DNA from: Cellvibrio sp. KY-YJ-3
GTDB lineage: Bacteria; Pseudomonadota; Gammaproteobacteria; Pseudomonadales; Cellvibrionaceae
DNA length: 64,000 bases
Direction: 5' to 3'
NCBI RefSeq assembly: GCF_008806955.1
Contig: NZ_CP031727.1
Coordinates: 744,001-808,000, forward strand
Both the position numbers and the translations under genes were made by a program. Under the pieces are notes generated by a model that saw only the letters and a program-made list of their open reading frames with translations, did no database searches and was not told the DNA's origin. This document shows, piece after piece, positions 37,025-46,085 of this stretch. Numbering within the stretch: the first letter of the stretch is position 1; every line of letters begins with the position of its first letter.

Positions 37025-37615
37025 TTAGACATTTTGCTTGCGACGACGCAGGCAGACCAATCCAGCCAATGCAATCGCCATTAACACCAGGGAAGATGAC
37101 TCTGGCACGCTGGTGCTATTAATCTGGATATCATCAACCAGAAAATAATAGCTGGAGGTGATTTGCAAGGTATCGATATTGGCGAAGTTCAGCGCCACGT
37201 TCTGCCAGGGGCTACTGAAACTGACTTCAACCATATCTACCAGGCCACCATTGAACCAGCCGATAACAGCGCCGGTTTGCCATTCAGCTTGCCAACCGTG
37301 CAGCCACAGGTCCTGCACGCTGAAGCTACCGCCGCCCTGCTGGGTCATGAACATATCATCGCCATAGTTGTTCAACGCAGCAAACTTGCCACTGTGGCCA
37401 CCACCGGTACCGGTAGCCCACCAACCACCGGTTTCACTTACATCAATCACATCCATATTAGTGCTGAATACAAAACCTGAGTCCACAAAACCAGCCCCGG
37501 AACTTGGCCCAAAAGTACCAGGCGCGACCTGGCTGTCAAAATCAATAATGGTGGCGCTGGCGCTAATGCTGACCAACAACATAAAGGGAATTAATAAGAG
37601 CTGCTTCAGTTTCAT
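37025..37615 (-). CDS. PEP-CTERM sorting-signal protein
   Basis: This 196-residue exported protein has a signal peptide (1-22, cut near ASA-TI) and a C-terminal tripartite sorting signal VPESSSLVLMAIALAGLVCLRRRKQ: the PEP-like motif, a hydrophobic helix and a basic tail. Such proteins are processed by an exosortase (EpsH/XrtA type) and are usually tied to exopolysaccharide loci. The central part is Gly/Ser/Trp-rich and beta-sandwich-like, perhaps carbohydrate-binding, but I cannot assign a family. No exosortase or exopolysaccharide cluster is in the window. Confidence 0.85.
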   Translation of the reverse strand: MKLKQLLLIPFMLLVSISASATIIDFDSQVAPGTFGPSSGAGFVDSGFVFSTNMDVIDVSETGGWWATGTGGGHSGKFAALNNYGDDMFMTQQGGGSFSVQDLWLHGWQAEWQTGAVIGWFNGGLVDMVEVSFSSPWQNVALNFANIDTLQITSSYYFLVDDIQINSTSVPESSSLVLMAIALAGLVCLRRRKQNV

Positions 37616-37825: not shown

Positions 37826-39901
37826 TCAAAAATCCAGCTGCACCGACACGCGTAGGCTGCGCGGTTCGAGCGGATGAAAATGCACATCCTCCACCCCCTC
37901 GTCCACCTCGCCCGGCAGGCGCGAGGGGTAAAAATAGGTGATGTCGTGATCGCGGCTGTTGGCCAGATTGAGCAGATCCAACCCCAGCGACCACTGCGCC
38001 CAGCGATAGCCTAGACCCAGGTTAACCACACTGGTGGACGACGCGCGCTGCTGATTAAAACTGTCCAAAACCCGCGCGCCAAAATAGCGGTAGCGCAAAT
38101 TGCCATGAAAGCCCTGTGCCGCCGGCGCATAACTCACACCGGCACTGGCGACAAACGGCAGCGAACCATCCACATACTTGCCCTGCCCGGTTTGTTGTTC
38201 GCTAAAACGCGAGTGGGTCCAGGCCAGTTCGGTATCCAGGCTCCAGCCCTCGGCAAACCAGACATAGCTGGCGATTTCGACACCAGAACGCTCAGAGGCG
38301 CGACTCGCCTCGGTATTGCCCGCATCGCCCACAAACAATAATTCTGAGTCCAGCGCCAGATACCAAATCGATGTGGAAATACTGTAGCGCCGGTTATCGA
38401 ATAATTTTGCACCCAGCTCTGCCCCTTGTGAGCGCGATAATAAATCCACCGGTTCACTCAACTCACCCGATAGCGGATCAATCACAATCGTTGCACCGCG
38501 TGCATCATTGGAATGAAAACCCTGACCGAGGTTTAAATAGGTTTCAACATTATCGCTAAAGCTATAACTCACACCCGCTTTAATACTAGTGATGTCATCT
38601 GATGCCCTGCCGGAGTTTTGTGCAAGATCGCTATCTACCTCCACTTGCAGATAATCATGACGCAAGCCCAGATGAGCACGAATTTTTTCACTTAGTTGAA
38701 TATCACTCTGCGCAAAAAGCGCCAGCGATGTTTCATCAATTGCATCCACGCGTGTCGCTGACAAACGTTCGCGCGCGCGGGTTTTATACAAGCCCACTTC
38801 ATCGATCGCATCGTGGCGAATTTGCACACCGAGTTTATGGGTTGCGGATTTTCCGGCAAGGCTGGTTTGCCAGTTGCGCACCAGCTCACCGCCGAGCAGT
38901 TGCCGATCATCCACTTGCTCAAACTCGTCACCGTTAACCGGGTCATCCAAAAAATAGGTGAAGTTGGAAAATAAATGTAATGTTGAATCAACTAGGTAAG
39001 CGCTGATCGACCAATTGGAGTTCGCCCATTGTGTTGACAGACTGTAACGGCTGGCATCACCGCCCACATCGGTATCCAGTGAGCCCAGTGCATCAATCAT
39101 GCCCTGCTCCACCGCGCGCTGTGGAATTTGATCGGCCGAGTTCCAACGATTGCGATAGCCCATCGCTGTAAGTGAAAATTCACCGCCGGCAAGGCGCGAT
39201 GAATAACGCGCAAGCAGATTGGTTTTGTGCAGGTCTTCATCAATATCTTTCCAGGGGCCCGCGTAAGCTTGCGCCTCCATTCCAACTAATAAATGCCCAT
39301 CATCAATAATGATTGGTGTCGCGCTGTATAAACGCTGATAGCCGTAATCACCCGCGGTAAGCGCCAGTTCACTATTATCCAAGGTATTTTTTACTACAAA
39401 CGCTGCGGCTCCTGCACCGGAAAAATCACCGACCTCGGCGTAGTAAGGACCTTTGCGATAATGAATGGTGTGAATTAATTCAGGGATAATAAAATTTAAA
39501 TCCGTATAGCCCTGACCGTGACCGTGGCTGCGCATATTTACCGGCATAGTGTCGATGCTGGTGGCAAAATCAGTGCCGTGATCCAAATTAAAACCGCGCA
39601 AGAAATATTGGTTCGCTTTACCGGAACCACTGTGCTGGGTAACCACCATACCGGGAACCATTTCCAGAATTTCACCGGTGCGCGCAAGTGGTCGGTTGGC
39701 AATTTCAGCGCTGCCGATAACACCCTCTGCGGCGGCCAAGCTGCTGCCCACTAAATTCAGGCGATGGCCGTAGACCACTAAATTCTCCAGCGCTGGCATT
39801 GGCCGTGTCGCGGTAGCAAGCGCAAGTCGCTCCGGCTCACTGGCGCTGCCGTAAAGTGGAATAACAATCGCTGCAAAAAAATACTGTATTTTTTTCATCA
39901 T
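37826..39901 (-). CDS. TonB-dependent outer-membrane receptor linked to a HupE-type protein
   Basis: This protein of about 691 residues has a signal peptide (cut near GSA-SE), a TonB-box-like LENLVVYGHRL, a plug (VIGSAEIANRPLARTGEILEMVPGMVVTQHSGSGKANQYFLRGFNLDHGTDF) and a 22-strand-type barrel ending SLRVSVQLDF. The plug carries a His-rich loop, NMRSHGHGQGY, compatible with metal binding. ATG 39901 has TAGGAAAG upstream and starts 7 bases after the HupE-type gene stop, so the two are co-translated. A nickel or other metal substrate is inferred from the HupE partner only. It is the last gene of the DUF4331 operon. Confidence 0.88.
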   Translation of the reverse strand: MMKKIQYFFAAIVIPLYGSASEPERLALATATRPMPALENLVVYGHRLNLVGSSLAAAEGVIGSAEIANRPLARTGEILEMVPGMVVTQHSGSGKANQYFLRGFNLDHGTDFATSIDTMPVNMRSHGHGQGYTDLNFIIPELIHTIHYRKGPYYAEVGDFSGAGAAAFVVKNTLDNSELALTAGDYGYQRLYSATPIIIDDGHLLVGMEAQAYAGPWKDIDEDLHKTNLLARYSSRLAGGEFSLTAMGYRNRWNSADQIPQRAVEQGMIDALGSLDTDVGGDASRYSLSTQWANSNWSISAYLVDSTLHLFSNFTYFLDDPVNGDEFEQVDDRQLLGGELVRNWQTSLAGKSATHKLGVQIRHDAIDEVGLYKTRARERLSATRVDAIDETSLALFAQSDIQLSEKIRAHLGLRHDYLQVEVDSDLAQNSGRASDDITSIKAGVSYSFSDNVETYLNLGQGFHSNDARGATIVIDPLSGELSEPVDLLSRSQGAELGAKLFDNRRYSISTSIWYLALDSELLFVGDAGNTEASRASERSGVEIASYVWFAEGWSLDTELAWTHSRFSEQQTGQGKYVDGSLPFVASAGVSYAPAAQGFHGNLRYRYFGARVLDSFNQQRASSTSVVNLGLGYRWAQWSLGLDLLNLANSRDHDITYFYPSRLPGEVDEGVEDVHFHPLEPRSLRVSVQLDF

Positions 39902-39908
39902 CACTTTC

Positions 39909-41042
39909 CTAGGCTGCCCAGCGCTGCAAAATCCATTGCAGTGCCACCAACGCAATCACTGCCGAGGTGCCTCCCAAGGCATAGCGCGCATACCAAAAGT
40001 AATGGCGCAATAACATCAACACCGGTAACAGCAGTAATACGATTGTCATTTGCCCCAACTCCACACCCAAATTAAAGGCCAACACCGCCAACAGTTGTTG
40101 ATCGGCAGGCAAACCCAATTCACCTAACACGCCGGCAAAACCCATCCCGTGTAGCAAACCAAACCCAAAGGTGAGCCAACCCAAACGCAGCAACAGCGGG
40201 AAAATATTATTGAGGGCAACCAGCAATACCGAGACTGCAATACCCAATTCCACCCAGCGGCTCGGCAGGTGAATAATGTGTAGCGCCGTAAGTGTCAGGG
40301 TGATGGAATGCGCGAGGGTAAATGCAGTGACAATCCAGCAAGCGTTAATAATAATTTGCCGATTATTGCTGACCGCCTGCCAGCGATGGTTGCGCCGCTC
40401 CACCACACAGGCGACTAACAACAACAGCAAAAATAAAATATGGTCCAGTCCAATCCAAATATGCAGCACGCCCTGATAAATAAATTCACCCAGCGTCGCA
40501 AGTTTACTGCCCTGCTCCGCCTGCCAGTTTATCTGGCGCTGTGTATCGTCCAGCACTCTGATACTGGATGATTTGTTATTGCTGGTACTGGAAAGTGTCA
40601 GCAATAATTTATGGTCGGCATCGTCTTTAAAGATTGCGCTGTAGTGAACAGCTATATCGCCAGCAAGTGAACACTGCGCACGCAGCGGAATTACCACATA
40701 AGCTTCATTAAAATGCGCATCAATTTGCCAGTCATCACCCAATACCACCGGGCACTCGCTGCCGCGCGTCAATTGCAAGTGGTTGGTTAAATATTTTTTT
40801 ACGGCATCTGCACGATTTTGTAATTCTTGCCAGCGCAATTGGCCGTCGCCATCCACATCCACCAGTAGCGCACGCTCCAAATCATACAGGCGCACTTGCA
40901 GCTCACCGGTTACTAATCCCTGCGAATTAATTTGCACATTCGCGTAGGCGGTACTGAGTTGGTGGGCCGCAGCGTGGTTGGTAAAAGCCCAGCTGATCAA
41001 CAGCAATACAAAAAATCGATGCAACATTTTTATCTGCGTCAT
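39909..41042 (-). CDS. HupE/UreJ-family membrane protein with periplasmic EF-hand-containing domain
   Basis: This 377-residue protein has a signal peptide (1-25), an exported domain of about 160 residues, then six or seven TM helices (about 190-375). The exported domain contains a complete EF-hand loop, DVDGDGQLRWQE (62-73: Asp at 1, 3 and 5, Gly6, Leu8, Glu12). The membrane part carries HupE/UreJ signatures: HIWIGLDHILF (His194, Asp200, His201), FTLAHSITL (His245), FGLLHGMGFAG (His298) and FNLGVELGQ (Glu328). Short HupE/UreJ proteins are nickel permeases; substrate for this long form is unknown. GGAGG before ATG 41042 lies inside the last codons of the TPR gene, so translation is coupled. 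Confidence 0.85.
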   Translation of the reverse strand: MTQIKMLHRFFVLLLISWAFTNHAAAHQLSTAYANVQINSQGLVTGELQVRLYDLERALLVDVDGDGQLRWQELQNRADAVKKYLTNHLQLTRGSECPVVLGDDWQIDAHFNEAYVVIPLRAQCSLAGDIAVHYSAIFKDDADHKLLLTLSSTSNNKSSSIRVLDDTQRQINWQAEQGSKLATLGEFIYQGVLHIWIGLDHILFLLLLLVACVVERRNHRWQAVSNNRQIIINACWIVTAFTLAHSITLTLTALHIIHLPSRWVELGIAVSVLLVALNNIFPLLLRLGWLTFGFGLLHGMGFAGVLGELGLPADQQLLAVLAFNLGVELGQMTIVLLLLPVLMLLRHYFWYARYALGGTSAVIALVALQWILQRWAA

Positions 41043-41044
41043 GC

Positions 41045-42178
41045 TTAACCCTCCTGCTGCAAATGAGTCAGGTCAAGCGCAACGGCTTGTTGCGCACGTT
41101 CCAGCAATAATTTATCGCTTGCTTCCCGCGCCAGTTGCCAATTGCGTTCAGCCCAGTAGAGCGCTTGTTGTGCATCCGGTTGCACTTGCAAAAAAAACAG
41201 TGCCACTTCAGCGGCATGCGCTTGGTCATCGCGTGCAATACGCAACTGCATTCGCTGCGCAAGTTGTTCGTGTATTGGCGAATCCTGCAGCAGATTTTTT
41301 TCCGCTATCACTAGGCGCAACAACAGCGCATCATCCTGCTGCGGCGCATTATTTATTAAAGGCGTTAATTGTTGGATTACCGCCGGCGAATCGCCCAGCG
41401 CCAGATTAATATCAGCCCACTGCACCCAATAGCTGAGGGAATTTTTATTACTAACCTGCTGTAAATGCTGCAAGGCGCGCTCGGGTTGATTCAACCGCAG
41501 CGCCATATCCGCCAACATTTGTAATAGCCAGAGGTTGCGTTCATCCGTGGGTAAACCTTGGCTCGCAATTAATTGTTGTAACTGCGCATAGCTTTCGCGC
41601 AATGCCTGCTCACTTTCACTGCTGCGCACTTCCAAACTGCACGCACCCAGGGTCACTAAATCCACTTTGCCGAGTAAGGCCATACAGGTTTTTTTGGCGG
41701 CGGATAATTCGCCCTGAATTAAATGCAAGCGCGCTTTTAATAACAGCGCCGTTGGTTGCGCTGCGTCTTGCAGCAAAATAAGGCTGAGGGTTTGCTGCGC
41801 CAAACTAAAACGATGTTGATGTTGTTGTACCTGCGCCCAGGCCAGGAGTATTGGCAAGTGATTACTGCCGGATTCAACCTGCGGCTTTAACACTGCTTCA
41901 GCTATACCGTAAAGATGGCTATAACCCGGTTGTGATGCTTTGCTTAAATAATCATTCGCTAATTGGCTGATGCTATCAGCATTCATCACCCGCGTTGTGT
42001 TAGTTACTTGCGCGGCAGTTGTATCCCAATGCGCAATAATTTGCTCTGGTGAGTGGGGTTGATAACGTGCGTTTGATTGGGTCAATGTTTGTGCATTTGT
42101 TGTCGCCAACACATTGGCGGTTGGCAACAATAGGGCAAGATAAAATCCAACCCAAGTTAACAAAGATAATGTTTTCAT
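41045..42178 (-). CDS. Exported TPR-like protein of the DUF4331 operon
   Basis: This 377-residue protein has a signal peptide (1-25, cut near VLA-TT) followed by helical repeats with TPR spacing (LPILLAWAQVQQHQHRFSLAQQTLSLIL, PTALLLKARLHLIQGELSAAKKTC, LLQMLADMALRLNQPERALQHLQQV, ALYWAERNWQLARE). It probably acts as a periplasmic scaffold. It ends two bases before the HupE-type start and lies 133 bases after the Ig-like lipoprotein gene. It has no catalytic motif. Confidence 0.8.
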   Translation of the reverse strand: MKTLSLLTWVGFYLALLLPTANVLATTNAQTLTQSNARYQPHSPEQIIAHWDTTAAQVTNTTRVMNADSISQLANDYLSKASQPGYSHLYGIAEAVLKPQVESGSNHLPILLAWAQVQQHQHRFSLAQQTLSLILLQDAAQPTALLLKARLHLIQGELSAAKKTCMALLGKVDLVTLGACSLEVRSSESEQALRESYAQLQQLIASQGLPTDERNLWLLQMLADMALRLNQPERALQHLQQVSNKNSLSYWVQWADINLALGDSPAVIQQLTPLINNAPQQDDALLLRLVIAEKNLLQDSPIHEQLAQRMQLRIARDDQAHAAEVALFFLQVQPDAQQALYWAERNWQLAREASDKLLLERAQQAVALDLTHLQQEG

Positions 42179-42311
42179 CGGTCATACCCGCTGCAATTCA
42201 GCTAATAAAATAGAGTCGTTTTTAACGGAGATATTTTTATTAATTTTAAAAAGCCTGCCATCCATAGCGGGCATCAAGGTAAGGAACTTTTTAATCAAAA
42301 ACTATTTCACG

Positions 42312-42812
42312 TTAAGGCGCCAACAGATCATCAAACGCGTTTTCATCACTTACATCTTGCGTGATGTTGCGGCTGTTGAGTGACAAGGGTGTATCGTTGG
42401 GCTGTTGATTAAATGCCGTGCGGGTATAACTGCTCATGGCAACCGTCAGTAAATCAATAGTGATATTGACTGTGGCTACCGCCGAGCTGGTTTTGCCATC
42501 GCTCACACTAAAGGTAAATTGATCAGCACCCACAAAATCCGGCGCCGGGGTGTAACTAAAACTACCGTCGGTTTGCAGGCTAAGCATGCCGTTTTGTGGT
42601 GCTGTCACCACTGCAAAACTGAGCATGTCTTTATCCAAATCACTCGCCATTAATTTTCCGGTAAATGGCGTGTCGGCCTTGGTACTGAGCGCCGCATTAT
42701 TTGCCGTGGGTGGCGCATTGACTTTTGGTTTTTTAGCGCCGTCACCACCACAAGCCGTGATGAATAAACTGCCCGACAAAATCAGCGGTAAGAGTGCGTT
42801 AGAAATTTTCAT
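42312..42812 (-). CDS. Lipoprotein with one cadherin/Ig-like (tandem-95 type) repeat
   Basis: This 166-residue protein has a signal peptide ending in a lipobox (LFITAC, Cys21). One repeat follows with the pattern PPTANNAALSTKADTPFTGKLMASDLDKD, then FSYTPAPDFVGADQFTFSVSDG, characteristic of the tandem-95/VCBS-like bacterial Ig fold that usually binds calcium and occurs in long arrays. A single unit on a lipoprotein is unusual. It starts 9 bases after the DUF4331 gene, so it is the second gene of that operon. Confidence 0.82.
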   Translation of the reverse strand: MKISNALLPLILSGSLFITACGGDGAKKPKVNAPPTANNAALSTKADTPFTGKLMASDLDKDMLSFAVVTAPQNGMLSLQTDGSFSYTPAPDFVGADQFTFSVSDGKTSSAVATVNITIDLLTVAMSSYTRTAFNQQPNDTPLSLNSRNITQDVSDENAFDDLLAP

Positions 42813-42821
42813 GACAACTCC

Positions 42822-44411
42822 TTAGTTAGAACCGGGCAGTGGATCGGCCAGATAAGGGAAGGAATTTTTCATCATCATCGCGTTAAGTGGTGCACCGTCG
42901 GTAAAAGGCACATTACCCACATTGGCGTCTTCGGGTTTACACAATCCCAAATCGGTATCCACACCGCCAACAGGAATTGGATAACACAAACGCCCCATAA
43001 CAACGCGCAACGCAATATCCACCACATCGTCACCCGGGCGACGGCCATTAGGGAAACCAGCCAGATCATTACCCGCCACACCAAAATTGGATTGCTCCGC
43101 TTGTGCCGTTGCAGCAATGCCAGTGTTCAAGCGCAACATTTCTGACGGCGTAACGGTTTTTAATTGATTGACGCCGGGGAAGCCGGTGAGAAAAGCAGTG
43201 ACTAAATCCATGCGCGGGAAATTAGTGGGAGCCAGCGTGGGCAAATTGGCACCGAGCGTGGTGTTAACCGCATCTTTAAATAAAATATTTAATAATTCAG
43301 GTAGCGAGGGATGCGTAACGTAATCGGCAAACTGGCCATCAGTTTTTGGTTCGGCAGTGGAAAAGCGATCCTTATCTTTTAAACCAATCACCAATTCATT
43401 CACCAGCGGGTTGCCCAAACGCGATACTTGGGTGAGCGCACCGCCATTCACTTCCGTTTTATTAAACGATGCCTGCGGATTTAAAATACGCGCCTGCGGC
43501 AAGCTCGCAGTAGTCCAACTGCCAATCACACCATTGCCACTGCCCACCAAACAGCTTTTGGGAATTTCGAGCGAAATGGCAGTGACATTTTTATCGAGTA
43601 AATCATCATTCATTGCCGATTGAGTAATACCACCGGGGAAGCCGCCGCCGTCGCCAGCTCCAGCGGCACTATCGCCTTCCACAGGAACATAATTGACTAA
43701 ATCAAAAGTTTTTCCGAGATTGACCACAAAGGGATCTTTGCGCTGACCGACAAATACTTTGCCGTTGGCACTACACCCGGGAATCGCAATTTCATAAATA
43801 AAACTGTTGGCGTAGCTTGCATATTCTGCCGGTGAAGTGAAGGTTTTATTACCGATAAAATCCAATGGTTTGTTAAATGTCATACCCATGCCCGACGCCA
43901 TAGTGACATCGGCACGCATACCGGTTTTACGATCACCTGTGCGCAATTTAACGGTATAACTTTCACTGAAATTGGCAGCAGACATATCGCTTGCAGAAAT
44001 GCCGCCGACATTTTTCAAAGGAACCGCAACTGAACGGCTGTTACCTTCTGGCCCTACCGTCAGCTTTACACCTTCACCGCCTGCCAGTGCCTGGCTGAAA
44101 CGAAATTCAAAGGTAAGGTCTTCTACAGCATCGCCGGTGTTATCCACGTGGATGCTGTACACCGCGTGTGGGTCCATCGCAAAATAATTGGGGCCGCCGT
44201 AAGCATCTTGCAGCGGAATATAGTTGGCGATCAACGTGACATAATCTTCGCGCCCGCTTTCATAGGAATTAAACGCGTAAAAATCGGTTGAATCGAGCGC
44301 GGGTGCGCGGGTGATATTCGGCGCTTCGCGGTGGGATGATGCAAAACTGCCCGAGGCAAGCAAGCTCGCACAGAGGGTACCAATAACGGCCGATAAATAA
44401 TTATGTTTCAT
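42822..44411 (-). CDS. Exported DUF4331 protein
   Basis: This 529-residue protein has a signal peptide (1-24, cut near SFA-SS). The diagnostic DUF4331 start is SSHREAP (25-31), then ALDSTDFYAFNSYESGREDYVTLIANYIPLQ; the family also shows FDLVNYVPVEGD and GRRPGDDVVDIALRVVMG, both present. Function unknown; members are often found with ECF sigma factors. ATG 44411 has CGGAG upstream; the frame opens ten codons earlier without support. It is the first gene of a five-gene operon, and the promoter-like element at 44447-44475 lies immediately upstream. Confidence 0.88.
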   Translation of the reverse strand: MKHNYLSAVIGTLCASLLASGSFASSHREAPNITRAPALDSTDFYAFNSYESGREDYVTLIANYIPLQDAYGGPNYFAMDPHAVYSIHVDNTGDAVEDLTFEFRFSQALAGGEGVKLTVGPEGNSRSVAVPLKNVGGISASDMSAANFSESYTVKLRTGDRKTGMRADVTMASGMGMTFNKPLDFIGNKTFTSPAEYASYANSFIYEIAIPGCSANGKVFVGQRKDPFVVNLGKTFDLVNYVPVEGDSAAGAGDGGGFPGGITQSAMNDDLLDKNVTAISLEIPKSCLVGSGNGVIGSWTTASLPQARILNPQASFNKTEVNGGALTQVSRLGNPLVNELVIGLKDKDRFSTAEPKTDGQFADYVTHPSLPELLNILFKDAVNTTLGANLPTLAPTNFPRMDLVTAFLTGFPGVNQLKTVTPSEMLRLNTGIAATAQAEQSNFGVAGNDLAGFPNGRRPGDDVVDIALRVVMGRLCYPIPVGGVDTDLGLCKPEDANVGNVPFTDGAPLNAMMMKNSFPYLADPLPGSN

Positions 44412-44427
44412 GATGACTCCGTTGGTT

Positions 44428-44444
44428 GTTGTGACATTCACAAC
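44428..44444. repeat. Perfect inverted repeat at the DUF4331 transcription start region
   Basis: GTTGTGA-CAT-TCACAAC is a 7-bp perfect palindrome with a 3-base spacer, placed between the proposed -10 element and the start codon. It could be an operator or a 5' stem-loop in the leader. A second, imperfectly centred pair (AAGTTGA/TCAACTT, 44457-44479) overlaps the proposed -35 element. Confidence 0.5.
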
Positions 44445-44446
44445 AG

Positions 44447-44475
44447 CAAACGGCTCAAGTTGATTTTTGGATTCA
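44447..44475 (-). promoter_or_regulatory. Candidate ECF promoter of the DUF4331 operon
   Basis: On the minus strand TGAATCC (44469-44475), 16 bases, CGTTTG (44447-44452). The 12-base block TTGAATCCAAAA is identical to the one upstream of the ECF sigma gene, and the spacing to CGT is identical. This is the architecture expected of an ECF-dependent promoter, about 35 bases before the start codon. Confidence 0.65.
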
Positions 44476-44536
44476 ACTTTTTGTGATTATTTTTAAATTA
44501 TTGTGTAAGTGCGCCAATATATTTTTTGACGGGCAT

Positions 44537-44562
44537 AAAAAACCCCGCGCGGGGCGGGGTTT
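44537..44562 (-). terminator. Terminator after the anti-sigma gene
   Basis: The stem AAACCCCGC/GCGGGGTTT with a 5-base loop lies 27 bases past the anti-sigma stop and is followed by a T run on the minus strand. It separates the sigma/anti-sigma transcript from the DUF4331 operon. Confidence 0.85.
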
Positions 44563-44588
44563 GGTTTAGCCGAGTCTCAGGAATATTT

Positions 44589-45299
44589 TTACATCGCCAC
44601 CAATTCCGCCGTGTACAACACGGTGGTCGGCTGGCCAGTGGGCGAGCCACCGAGTGGTTCCAAACTCACTGCGAGTGCAGCGACTTGTAGCTGATCGAAC
44701 AGTGCCGAACGCGGCAAACTCAACTTGCCGGTTTTGGGGAGCAGGCCGAGTGAGATTGGCGCGCGACCATCGGCGGCGACCATCCACAATTCATAGTCCT
44801 GATTGTCCAGCGGGGTGAACTTGTCGGTGGCGCTCACCACTAGTTGGTCCTCGCGCAATTCAATCAACCACAGGGCTTGGGCTTTTTCGCTTTGCACCAC
44901 GGCGATTTGGGCCGGCGATAAAGGTTCGACCGGTTGCAGATTCACCAGCAAGACCGCCATCAGGATTGCCGCGGCGGTAGCTAACCCGGCGAACCATTGC
45001 AAGGCGCGTGGTTTGCGTTGCGGCAGTGCCAGCACATTACTGACCCTGTCGGTGCTAGCACCGGTGCTGACAAAACCCAACTGCTGTTGGATACGCTCCC
45101 ACACCTCGGGCGCGGGCTGGACATTGGGCAGTGCAGCACCCAACTCATTCAGGCGACTCTCCCAGCGCCACAGGCTGGAGCGCAGGCCTGGGTGTTGCAT
45201 CAGCAGTCGCTGGTAGCGGACACGCGCAGGGCCTTGCAAGCTGCCGAGCACATATTCAGCCGAGAGTGCATTTTGACGTTCATCGGTAAGGTAATTCAT
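44589..45299 (-). CDS. RskA-like anti-sigma factor
   Basis: This 236-residue protein has a cytoplasmic N-terminus typical of RskA-type anti-sigmas (SAEYVLGSLQGPARVRYQRLLMQHPGL), one TM helix (about 96-116, ALQWFAGLATAAAILMAVLLV) and an extracytoplasmic RskA domain (QALWLIELREDQLVVSATDKFTPLDNQDYELWMVAADGRAPISLGLLPKTG, partly quoted). It would hold the ECF sigma factor inactive until an envelope signal. The start overlaps the sigma gene stop by 4 bases. No zinc-binding HxxxCxxC motif is visible. Confidence 0.9.
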   Translation of the reverse strand: MNYLTDERQNALSAEYVLGSLQGPARVRYQRLLMQHPGLRSSLWRWESRLNELGAALPNVQPAPEVWERIQQQLGFVSTGASTDRVSNVLALPQRKPRALQWFAGLATAAAILMAVLLVNLQPVEPLSPAQIAVVQSEKAQALWLIELREDQLVVSATDKFTPLDNQDYELWMVAADGRAPISLGLLPKTGKLSLPRSALFDQLQVAALAVSLEPLGGSPTGQPTTVLYTAELVAM

Positions 45300-45844
45300 G
45301 ATTCAAGGCACCTCTTTAAACGTTCCAATCCGCGACGAATCCAGGTTTTGATGGTGCCTAGTGGCAGCTCCATCCGGGCGCAGACTTCCATGTGGGTCAA
45401 ACCGCGAAAATAGGCGAGTTCGATGGCGCTGCGCTGGCTGTCTTCCAGCCGATCCATGCAGCGATCGATGCGCACCCGGTCGCGCTGCTCATACAACTCT
45501 TGCTCGGGTGTCTGATGATGAACTGCCTCTTCCAATTCCTCGGCGCCAGTCTCGCGCCGACTCTTGGTGGCGCGCAGCATATCCAGCGCGCGGTAGCGCA
45601 CTATGCTGATCATCCAGGTGAGCACTTCGCCCTTCTCCTGCTGATACTCGCCCGCGTTGTGCCATATCCGCACAAATGCCTCCTGTACCGCCTCTTCCGC
45701 CAGATCGCGACGGCGCAACATCTGCAGGCTGACGGCGTAAAGTTTGCCCGCACTGCGCTGGTAGAGGTTGGCGAAAGCCTGCCTATCGCCCTGCGCGGTG
45801 GCGCTGAGCAGCTGCAAAAACTCCTGATTCGGATCCATAGTCAT
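45296..45844 (-). CDS. ECF RNA polymerase sigma factor (SigK-like)
   Basis: This protein of about 182 residues has sigma region 2 (FANLYQRSAGKLYAVSLQMLRRRDLAEEAVQEAFVRIWHNAGEY, partly quoted; then LTWMISIVRYRALDMLR) and region 4 (RSAIELAYFRGLTHMEVCARMELPLGTIKTWIRRGLERLK). It has the SigK/RpoE-like layout usually paired with RskA. Starts at 45844 and 45838 are both possible. A promoter-like element identical in layout to that of the DUF4331 operon lies 72-100 bases upstream, indicating autoregulation. Confidence 0.92.
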   Translation of the reverse strand: MTMDPNQEFLQLLSATAQGDRQAFANLYQRSAGKLYAVSLQMLRRRDLAEEAVQEAFVRIWHNAGEYQQEKGEVLTWMISIVRYRALDMLRATKSRRETGAEELEEAVHHQTPEQELYEQRDRVRIDRCMDRLEDSQRSAIELAYFRGLTHMEVCARMELPLGTIKTWIRRGLERLKRCLES

Positions 45845-45915
45845 TCTCGTTGTTATCAACCGTTAAGGATTCATCGGGTCACTGGACTCCGCCAGAATGT
45901 GGCCCATTCAGCTGC

Positions 45916-45944
45916 TTTACGGCCCGCCGCGGGTTTTGGATTCA
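45916..45944 (-). promoter_or_regulatory. Candidate autoregulated ECF promoter of the sigma/anti-sigma operon
   Basis: On the minus strand TGAATCC (45938-45944), 16 bases, CGTAAA (45916-45921). The block TTGAATCCAAAA (45934-45945) also occurs before the DUF4331 gene at the same distance from CGT. I did not notice a third copy with this spacing while reading, but no systematic search was run. Confidence 0.65.
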
Positions 45945-46085
45945 ATTTTTTTACAGAATTGCTGAAGTGAGACGCCCTGCGCACTCGCAAGGCAGTATCG
46001 GAGCAATAGAAAAGAAGGGAGGCAGCCGCTGGCAGTTGCATAAGCGCCACTGCCAGCAGGTAATGAGGGAGCAACAAGAAAGAAA

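Follow-up and report, generated by a model that had tools for sequence, protein, structure and literature searches.

A SigK-like sigma factor and a DUF4331-HupE-TonB receptor operon on twin promoters in Cellvibrio: a probable autoregulated regulon for nickel or copper capture

The SigK/RskA pair (ECF18/ECF19) couples an extracytoplasmic function (ECF) sigma factor to an RskA-type anti-sigma factor, with mpt70 and mpt83 as targets (PMC7509140). Proteins that combine an Ang-1 domain with HupE/UreJ-2 have been called 'anglerases', and the Ang-1 domain binds Cu2+ (Kd 74 nM) tighter than Ni2+ (220 nM) (PMC12537917, PDB 9GCE). An ECF sigma factor, an anti-sigma factor and a TonB receptor also meet in FecI/FecR/FecA signalling, and nickel TonB receptors controlled by NikR form a further comparison. 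We analysed a 64,000-nucleotide stretch of Cellvibrio sp. KY-YJ-3 (contig NZ_CP031727.1, positions 744,001 to 808,000; hereafter the window), in which the minus strand carries, in this order, genes for an ECF sigma factor, an RskA-type protein, a hairpin, and genes for a DUF4331 protein, an Ig-like Big_9 lipoprotein, a tetratricopeptide repeat (TPR)-like protein, a HupE_UreJ_2 protein and a TonB receptor (Table 1). This is probably an autoregulated SigK-like regulon for nickel or copper capture, with the sigma/RskA pair and the operon on twin promoters. The sigma/anti-sigma pair is of a known type; the conserved gene combination that accompanies it was found in no paper of the literature searched, in which DUF4331 is not named either, and the main text of PMC12537917 has 0 occurrences each of DUF4331, sigma, extracytoplasmic and tetratricopeptide.

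The two transcripts are joined by their promoter element. The 12-base block TTGAATCCAAAA has two copies in the window (44465-44476 and 45934-45945), each on the minus strand (0.02 expected; two copies in none of 100 shuffles), and TGAATCC-N16-CGT is likewise found twice, at the same two places (0.14 expected; two reached in 1 of 100 shuffles). These counts confirm the original prediction that an identical block with TGAATCC-N16-CGT lies upstream of both the ECF sigma and the DUF4331 genes. The search of orthologous operons proposed with it has now been run, and the element is conserved upstream of both, in the generalised form TG[A/C]ATC[C/T]-N16-CGT, in Pseudomonadota and Verrucomicrobiota. 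Both promoters read TGAATCC-N16-CGT in all four Cellvibrio-type loci (L008-L011); one genome of the same genus (G012) has TGCATCC- or TGCATCT-N16-CGT, and so do most of the other lineages seen, namely Alishewanella, Pseudoalteromonas, Marinobacter (DUF4331 side), Saccharospirillum (sigma side), Derxia and Verrucomicrobiota. When the spacer of TG[A/C]ATC[C/T]-Nk-CGT was varied over 71 deduplicated upstream regions, 40 matched at k=16 (21 of 47 DUF4331 and 19 of 24 ECF regions) and 0-4 at each of 17 other values of k (8 to 25), a count that missed four exact copies seen by eye (both genes of L026, the ECF gene of L031 and the DUF4331 gene of L033) because the start of the open reading frame (ORF) was over-extended. 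Among the deviants, the ECF regions of L027 and L032 have C instead of the first T, and the DUF4331 region of L020 has TGCAACT.

The element was present in 22 of 28 DUF4331 regions that have an ECF or RskA gene no more than 3 kb away versus 1 of 26 without (Fisher p 9.5e-9, related loci not being independent); these come from 62 deduplicated DUF4331 regions, the window's own included, of which 8 were left out for lying at contig edges (3 of these have the element). In one genome (G006) that has the sigma-RskA pair and a DUF4331-Ig-TPR-HupE operon without the TonB gene, a same-family receptor is encoded on a different contig behind TGAATCC-N16-CGT, with its ATG 56 bases downstream; over 660 positions it shares 43% identity with the window's receptor. 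The observation is stronger than first claimed, and the predicted regulon architecture is well supported by promoter conservation.

The window's sigma factor has regions 2 and 4 and aligns with SigK (PDB 4NQW, 3.4e-28), with two cysteines at the positions of SigK C133 and C183, and an RskA_C protein follows it. NCBIfam SigK is its best match, but membership of that subfamily is not claimed, because the 157 bits fall below the cut-off of 226. Both SigK-type cysteines are present in 17/17 sigma factors with an adjacent RskA and in 0/9 without an RskA match. Unlike the mpt70/mpt83 targets of the described pair, the operon here is of a DUF4331 metal type, and the sigma gene of the Verrucomicrobia and Derxia loci is followed by one for a ChrR-type cupin instead of RskA (5/5 loci tested). 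Those loci share the DUF4331-TPR-HupE genes and the promoter type; judged by these matches, the putative anti-sigma sensor is exchanged, RskA or ChrR-type cupin, under the same promoter type and target genes. FecI/FecR/FecA, in contrast, differs from the present locus in that the anti-sigma factor here is RskA-type and the receptor, encoded last in the operon, has no STN match; the anti-sigma factor matches RskA_C only, and the receptor matches only plug and barrel models (E up to 0.001).

The DUF4331 protein matches PF14224 at 496 bits (cut-off 27), and all 28 proteins aligned share its His27. Under signal-peptidase rules, 45 of 46 DUF4331 N-termini could mature to an X-X-His start, mostly Ser-Ser-His (Ala at -1 in 40), and cleavage directly before the His is also compatible with those rules in 45 of 46. 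The mature N-terminus of the window's protein may thus be Ser-Ser-His; X-X-His is the amino-terminal Cu2+- and Ni2+-binding (ATCUN) motif. A comparison of DUF4331 folds gave nothing usable. Among 43 DUF4331 loci, from a short-conserved-peptide search that is weighted to closer relatives and with many short contigs, 27 had a TPR gene, 24 a HupE gene, 22 the two together and 11 a TonB gene. The core partnership of DUF4331, TPR and HupE is wider than the sigma regulon: plasmids of Streptomyces and Miltoncostaea (Actinomycetota) and of Adhaeribacter (Bacteroidota) carry DUF4331-TPR pairs, with an annotated nickel transporter gene next after the pair in Streptomyces. After these three genes the Streptomyces plasmid carries a fasciclin-domain gene (L126:10229-10882); fasciclin-domain proteins are SigK targets in mycobacteria. 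DUF4331 as a type II secretion substrate is suggested because type II secretion genes adjoin it in all four Rhodobacterales plasmid contexts opened (L093, L109, L110, L111), in three of which a gene for an A24 family peptidase, which we take to be the prepilin-peptidase family, is divergent from it.

The HupE protein matches the PF13795 (HupE_UreJ_2) membrane domain at 3.4e-42, and its N-terminal domain has the Ang-1 beta-sandwich fold, as in the Cu-bound domain (PMC12537917, PDB 9GCE); what sets it apart from that published system is its place beside DUF4331 and a TonB receptor in an operon linked to an ECF sigma factor. Its His27 would become His1 after the predicted signal cleavage. An N-terminal His is found in 22 of 22 HupE rows, with Ala at -1 in 21, the cleavage being rule-inferred, and a second conserved His (144) in 21. 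The receptor interleaves on the best tree with relatives from nikR/HoxN/hydrogenase neighbourhoods, in which 7 of 11 annotated relatives lie. It resembles NikR-controlled nickel receptors in this respect and differs from them in its linkage to an ECF sigma factor instead of NikR. Among 24 genomes of the bacterial family, full urease (G002, G014, G023) or NiFe-hydrogenase-family (G006, G012) matches occur in 5 of 11 DUF4331 holders and in none of the 13 others (p 0.011, with no correction for kinship), a count that dropped weak urease matches in holders (G000, G001, G003) and non-holders (G007, G015, G017) and entered G021 and G022 as non-holders because their DUF4331 matches are weak and partial. 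Beyond the family, DUF4331 has no match in several genomes that hold urease (e.g. G024, G027, G029, G030). Of the autoregulated uptake or sensing regulon, perhaps for a metal, that had been predicted, the regulon is carried by promoter conservation and the metal gains support from outside the window, since the N-terminal domain of HupE folds like a Cu-bound domain and the receptor's relatives adjoin nikR or HoxN; nickel itself is a candidate. The operon most likely captures a metal of the Cu/Ni class, and we infer rather than observe both the identity of the metal and the role of DUF4331.

A mechanism can be proposed on this basis. The RskA-type anti-sigma factor would hold the SigK-like sigma factor which, once free, would switch on its own gene pair and the DUF4331 operon from the twin promoters, TGAATCC-N16-CGT here and TGCATCC-N16-CGT in most other lineages seen. 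DUF4331 may be an exported metal-binding protein, and the TonB receptor, to judge from its relatives, would carry the metal or a metal complex across the outer membrane. The N-terminal-His domain of HupE would then catch the ion and pass it through the inner membrane, as the Ang-1 work would suggest (PMC12537917), and the two sigma cysteines, together with the anti-sigma sensor, could couple the regulon to a redox or an envelope/metal signal. A more elaborate version, which we regard as unlikely, makes DUF4331 a type-II-secreted protein metallophore that would bind Ni2+/Cu2+ at its ATCUN-like Ser-Ser-His N-terminus and pass it on, first to the TonB receptor and next to the HupE His1 domain, with one ECF promoter code across phyla and the anti-sigma factor (RskA or ChrR-type cupin) exchanged.

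The element also occurs elsewhere. TTGAATCC-N16-CGT has six copies in the single-contig genome of 4.49 Mb (reversed control 0): the two window promoters, one before an exported-protein gene and three (L004-L006) within opposite-strand ORFs. The copy before the exported-protein gene (L003:1501-1527; G000:C1:922801-922827) reads TTGAATCCAAAA-N12-CGT, with an ATG 42 bases downstream; the gene encodes a 224-residue exported protein, weakly DUF4097-like below the cut-off, and such a site is kept in 2 of 6 same-genus orthologues, the window's genome included. Over 21 genomes of the genus, TGAATCCAA-N14-CGT gives 53 matches (reversed control 5), of which 18 are sigma and DUF4331 promoters, judged by position.

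Several findings weigh against a metal-capture regulon of this composition. The remaining genus matches include a recurrent unexplained site before a MacB-like-looking gene (named by eye), also in genomes without this sigma factor; it lies 39-73 bases upstream (L159:1578-1603, L144, L146, L154, L163) in five Cellvibrio-type genomes, two of them without an orthologue of the window's sigma factor. Six of the 28 linked DUF4331 genes scored no motif, two of which (L026, L033) do carry it further in, hidden by an over-extended ORF start. Pseudoalteromonas and Marinobacter loci have no TonB gene, the Saccharospirillum locus has no TPR, HupE or TonB gene, and no displaced receptor under TGCATCC-N16-CGT was found in Pseudoalteromonas (plasmid only), Marinobacter or Saccharospirillum. 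In three Alishewanella loci the operon is kept, but its HupE gene is without the membrane permease part of the Ang-1 HupE/UreJ-2 system; these genes (L012:13158-13667, L013:13157-13666, L014:13158-13664) encode the soluble N-terminal domain only, about 170 residues. Finally, NiFe hydrogenase, Ni-dependent superoxide dismutase (Ni-SOD) and NikR have no match in the window's genome, and its urease alpha match is a single partial one (25.7 bits, positions 56-106 of 121; cut-off 23). Full matches elsewhere score 180-193 bits, and the partial match was read as another amidohydrolase. None of the four is convincingly matched in the genome, and either nickel or copper may be the metal.

It is possible, though not likely, that the regulon serves copper and not nickel, either in supplying secreted copper enzymes such as lytic polysaccharide monooxygenases (LPMOs) or in keeping copper off the envelope. 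The published Ang-1 domain prefers Cu2+, and the genome yields a single LPMO_10 match and nothing convincing for a nickel enzyme. Sites of the ATCUN-type X-X-His and His1 kinds are good Cu2+ binders. However, the receptor's relatives cluster with nikR, HoxN and hydrogenase genes, and LPMO_10 does not track DUF4331 in the genus, with 0 in the holders G006 and G009 and six each in the non-holders G013 and G015. Somewhat doubtful is an envelope or oxidative-stress regulon, in which the cysteines and RskA/ChrR would sense oxidants, the DUF4331, Ig and TPR proteins would serve the surface or its repair and metal binding would serve defence. The strict association of the SigK-type cysteines with RskA and the ChrR-type cupins of the Verrucomicrobial and Derxia loci agree with this, but the recurrent DUF4331-TPR-HupE core and the TonB receptor resemble parts for acquisition; the neighbourhood searches covered the regulon's own families only, with no systematic look for a constant repair or antioxidant gene. 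That the twin promoters belong to another sigma factor, or that the block is a by-product of a general ECF consensus, is very improbable: the genome does hold further ECF sigma genes, including a second RskA-paired one, and genomes that lack this sigma factor still have the motif ahead of other genes, but none of the regions upstream of 18 paralogous or more distant ECF genes has TGNATCY-N16-CGT (one of the 18, L072, being the sigma gene inside the operon of G026), by eye the RskA-paired paralogue has TGCAACTT...CGTAG in its place, and presence of the element follows linkage to this sigma factor. The paralogue (L087, G000:C1:946168-946707) encodes a sigma factor 37% identical, and similar promoter-like sequences stand in several same-genus loci.

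Table 1. Features of the sigma/RskA and DUF4331 transcripts in the window.
Feature	Position	Strand	Basis
Promoter element TTGAATCC-N16-CGT (putative -35 and -10) before ECF sigma gene	45919..45945	-	Motif search and conservation in relatives
ECF sigma factor, SigK-like	45296..45838	-	ATG 45838 by homology; ORF opens at 45859
RskA-type anti-sigma factor	44589..45299	-	RskA_C 1.3e-21
Terminator-like GC hairpin and T-run between both transcripts	44537..44562	-	Read from sequence, no program score
Promoter element TTGAATCC-N16-CGT before DUF4331 operon	44450..44476	-	Motif search and conservation; CGT-to-ATG gap 38 bases
Exported DUF4331 protein	42822..44411	-	PF14224 1.3e-148
One-repeat Ig-like (Big_9) lipoprotein	42312..42812	-	9.3e-21; lipobox ITAC read from sequence
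Exported TPR-like repeat protein, frequent DUF4331 partner	41045..42178	-	Sub-threshold Pfam match
Ang-1-type HupE/UreJ-2 protein: N-terminal metal-binding-type domain and membrane permease domain with HX5DH	39909..41042	-	
TonB-dependent receptor, last operon gene	37826..39901	-	Plug and barrel models matched

The gene content originally predicted is borne out by domain matches, and the terminator placed between the transcripts corresponds to the unscored hairpin with its T-run (44562-44537). The 'TPR' protein is classed as TPR-like, its Pfam match being sub-threshold only (ANAPC3, 21.1 bits versus 27.2). Two details of the layout are corrected: not all operon gaps are short, because the Ig-TPR gap is 133 bases, and at the operon end the TonB ATG (39901 or 39898) lies 7 or 10 bases past the HupE stop, which leaves no need for an overlap of these two genes. 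The start codon of RskA shares bases with the stop codon of the sigma gene (ATGA). The DUF4331 start is corrected to ATG 44411 by homology, GTG 44441 being a mere ORF opening. Directly downstream of the operon, 37025-37615 encodes a protein with a sub-threshold PEP-CTERM motif.

What is new is the DUF4331 link, the cross-phylum promoter and the exchanged anti-sigma sensor, RskA or ChrR-type cupin. DUF4331, a widespread protein family of unknown function, is now apparently tied to metal handling, and it gains recurrent partners, a promoter that predicts its regulon and a testable chemistry. If the proposed regulon is real, a protein-based capture step would be added to bacterial nickel or copper uptake, and it would be seen where some of the published Ang-1 permease domains operate. 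It would also be a natural example of a changed sensor under one sigma promoter code that different phyla have kept.
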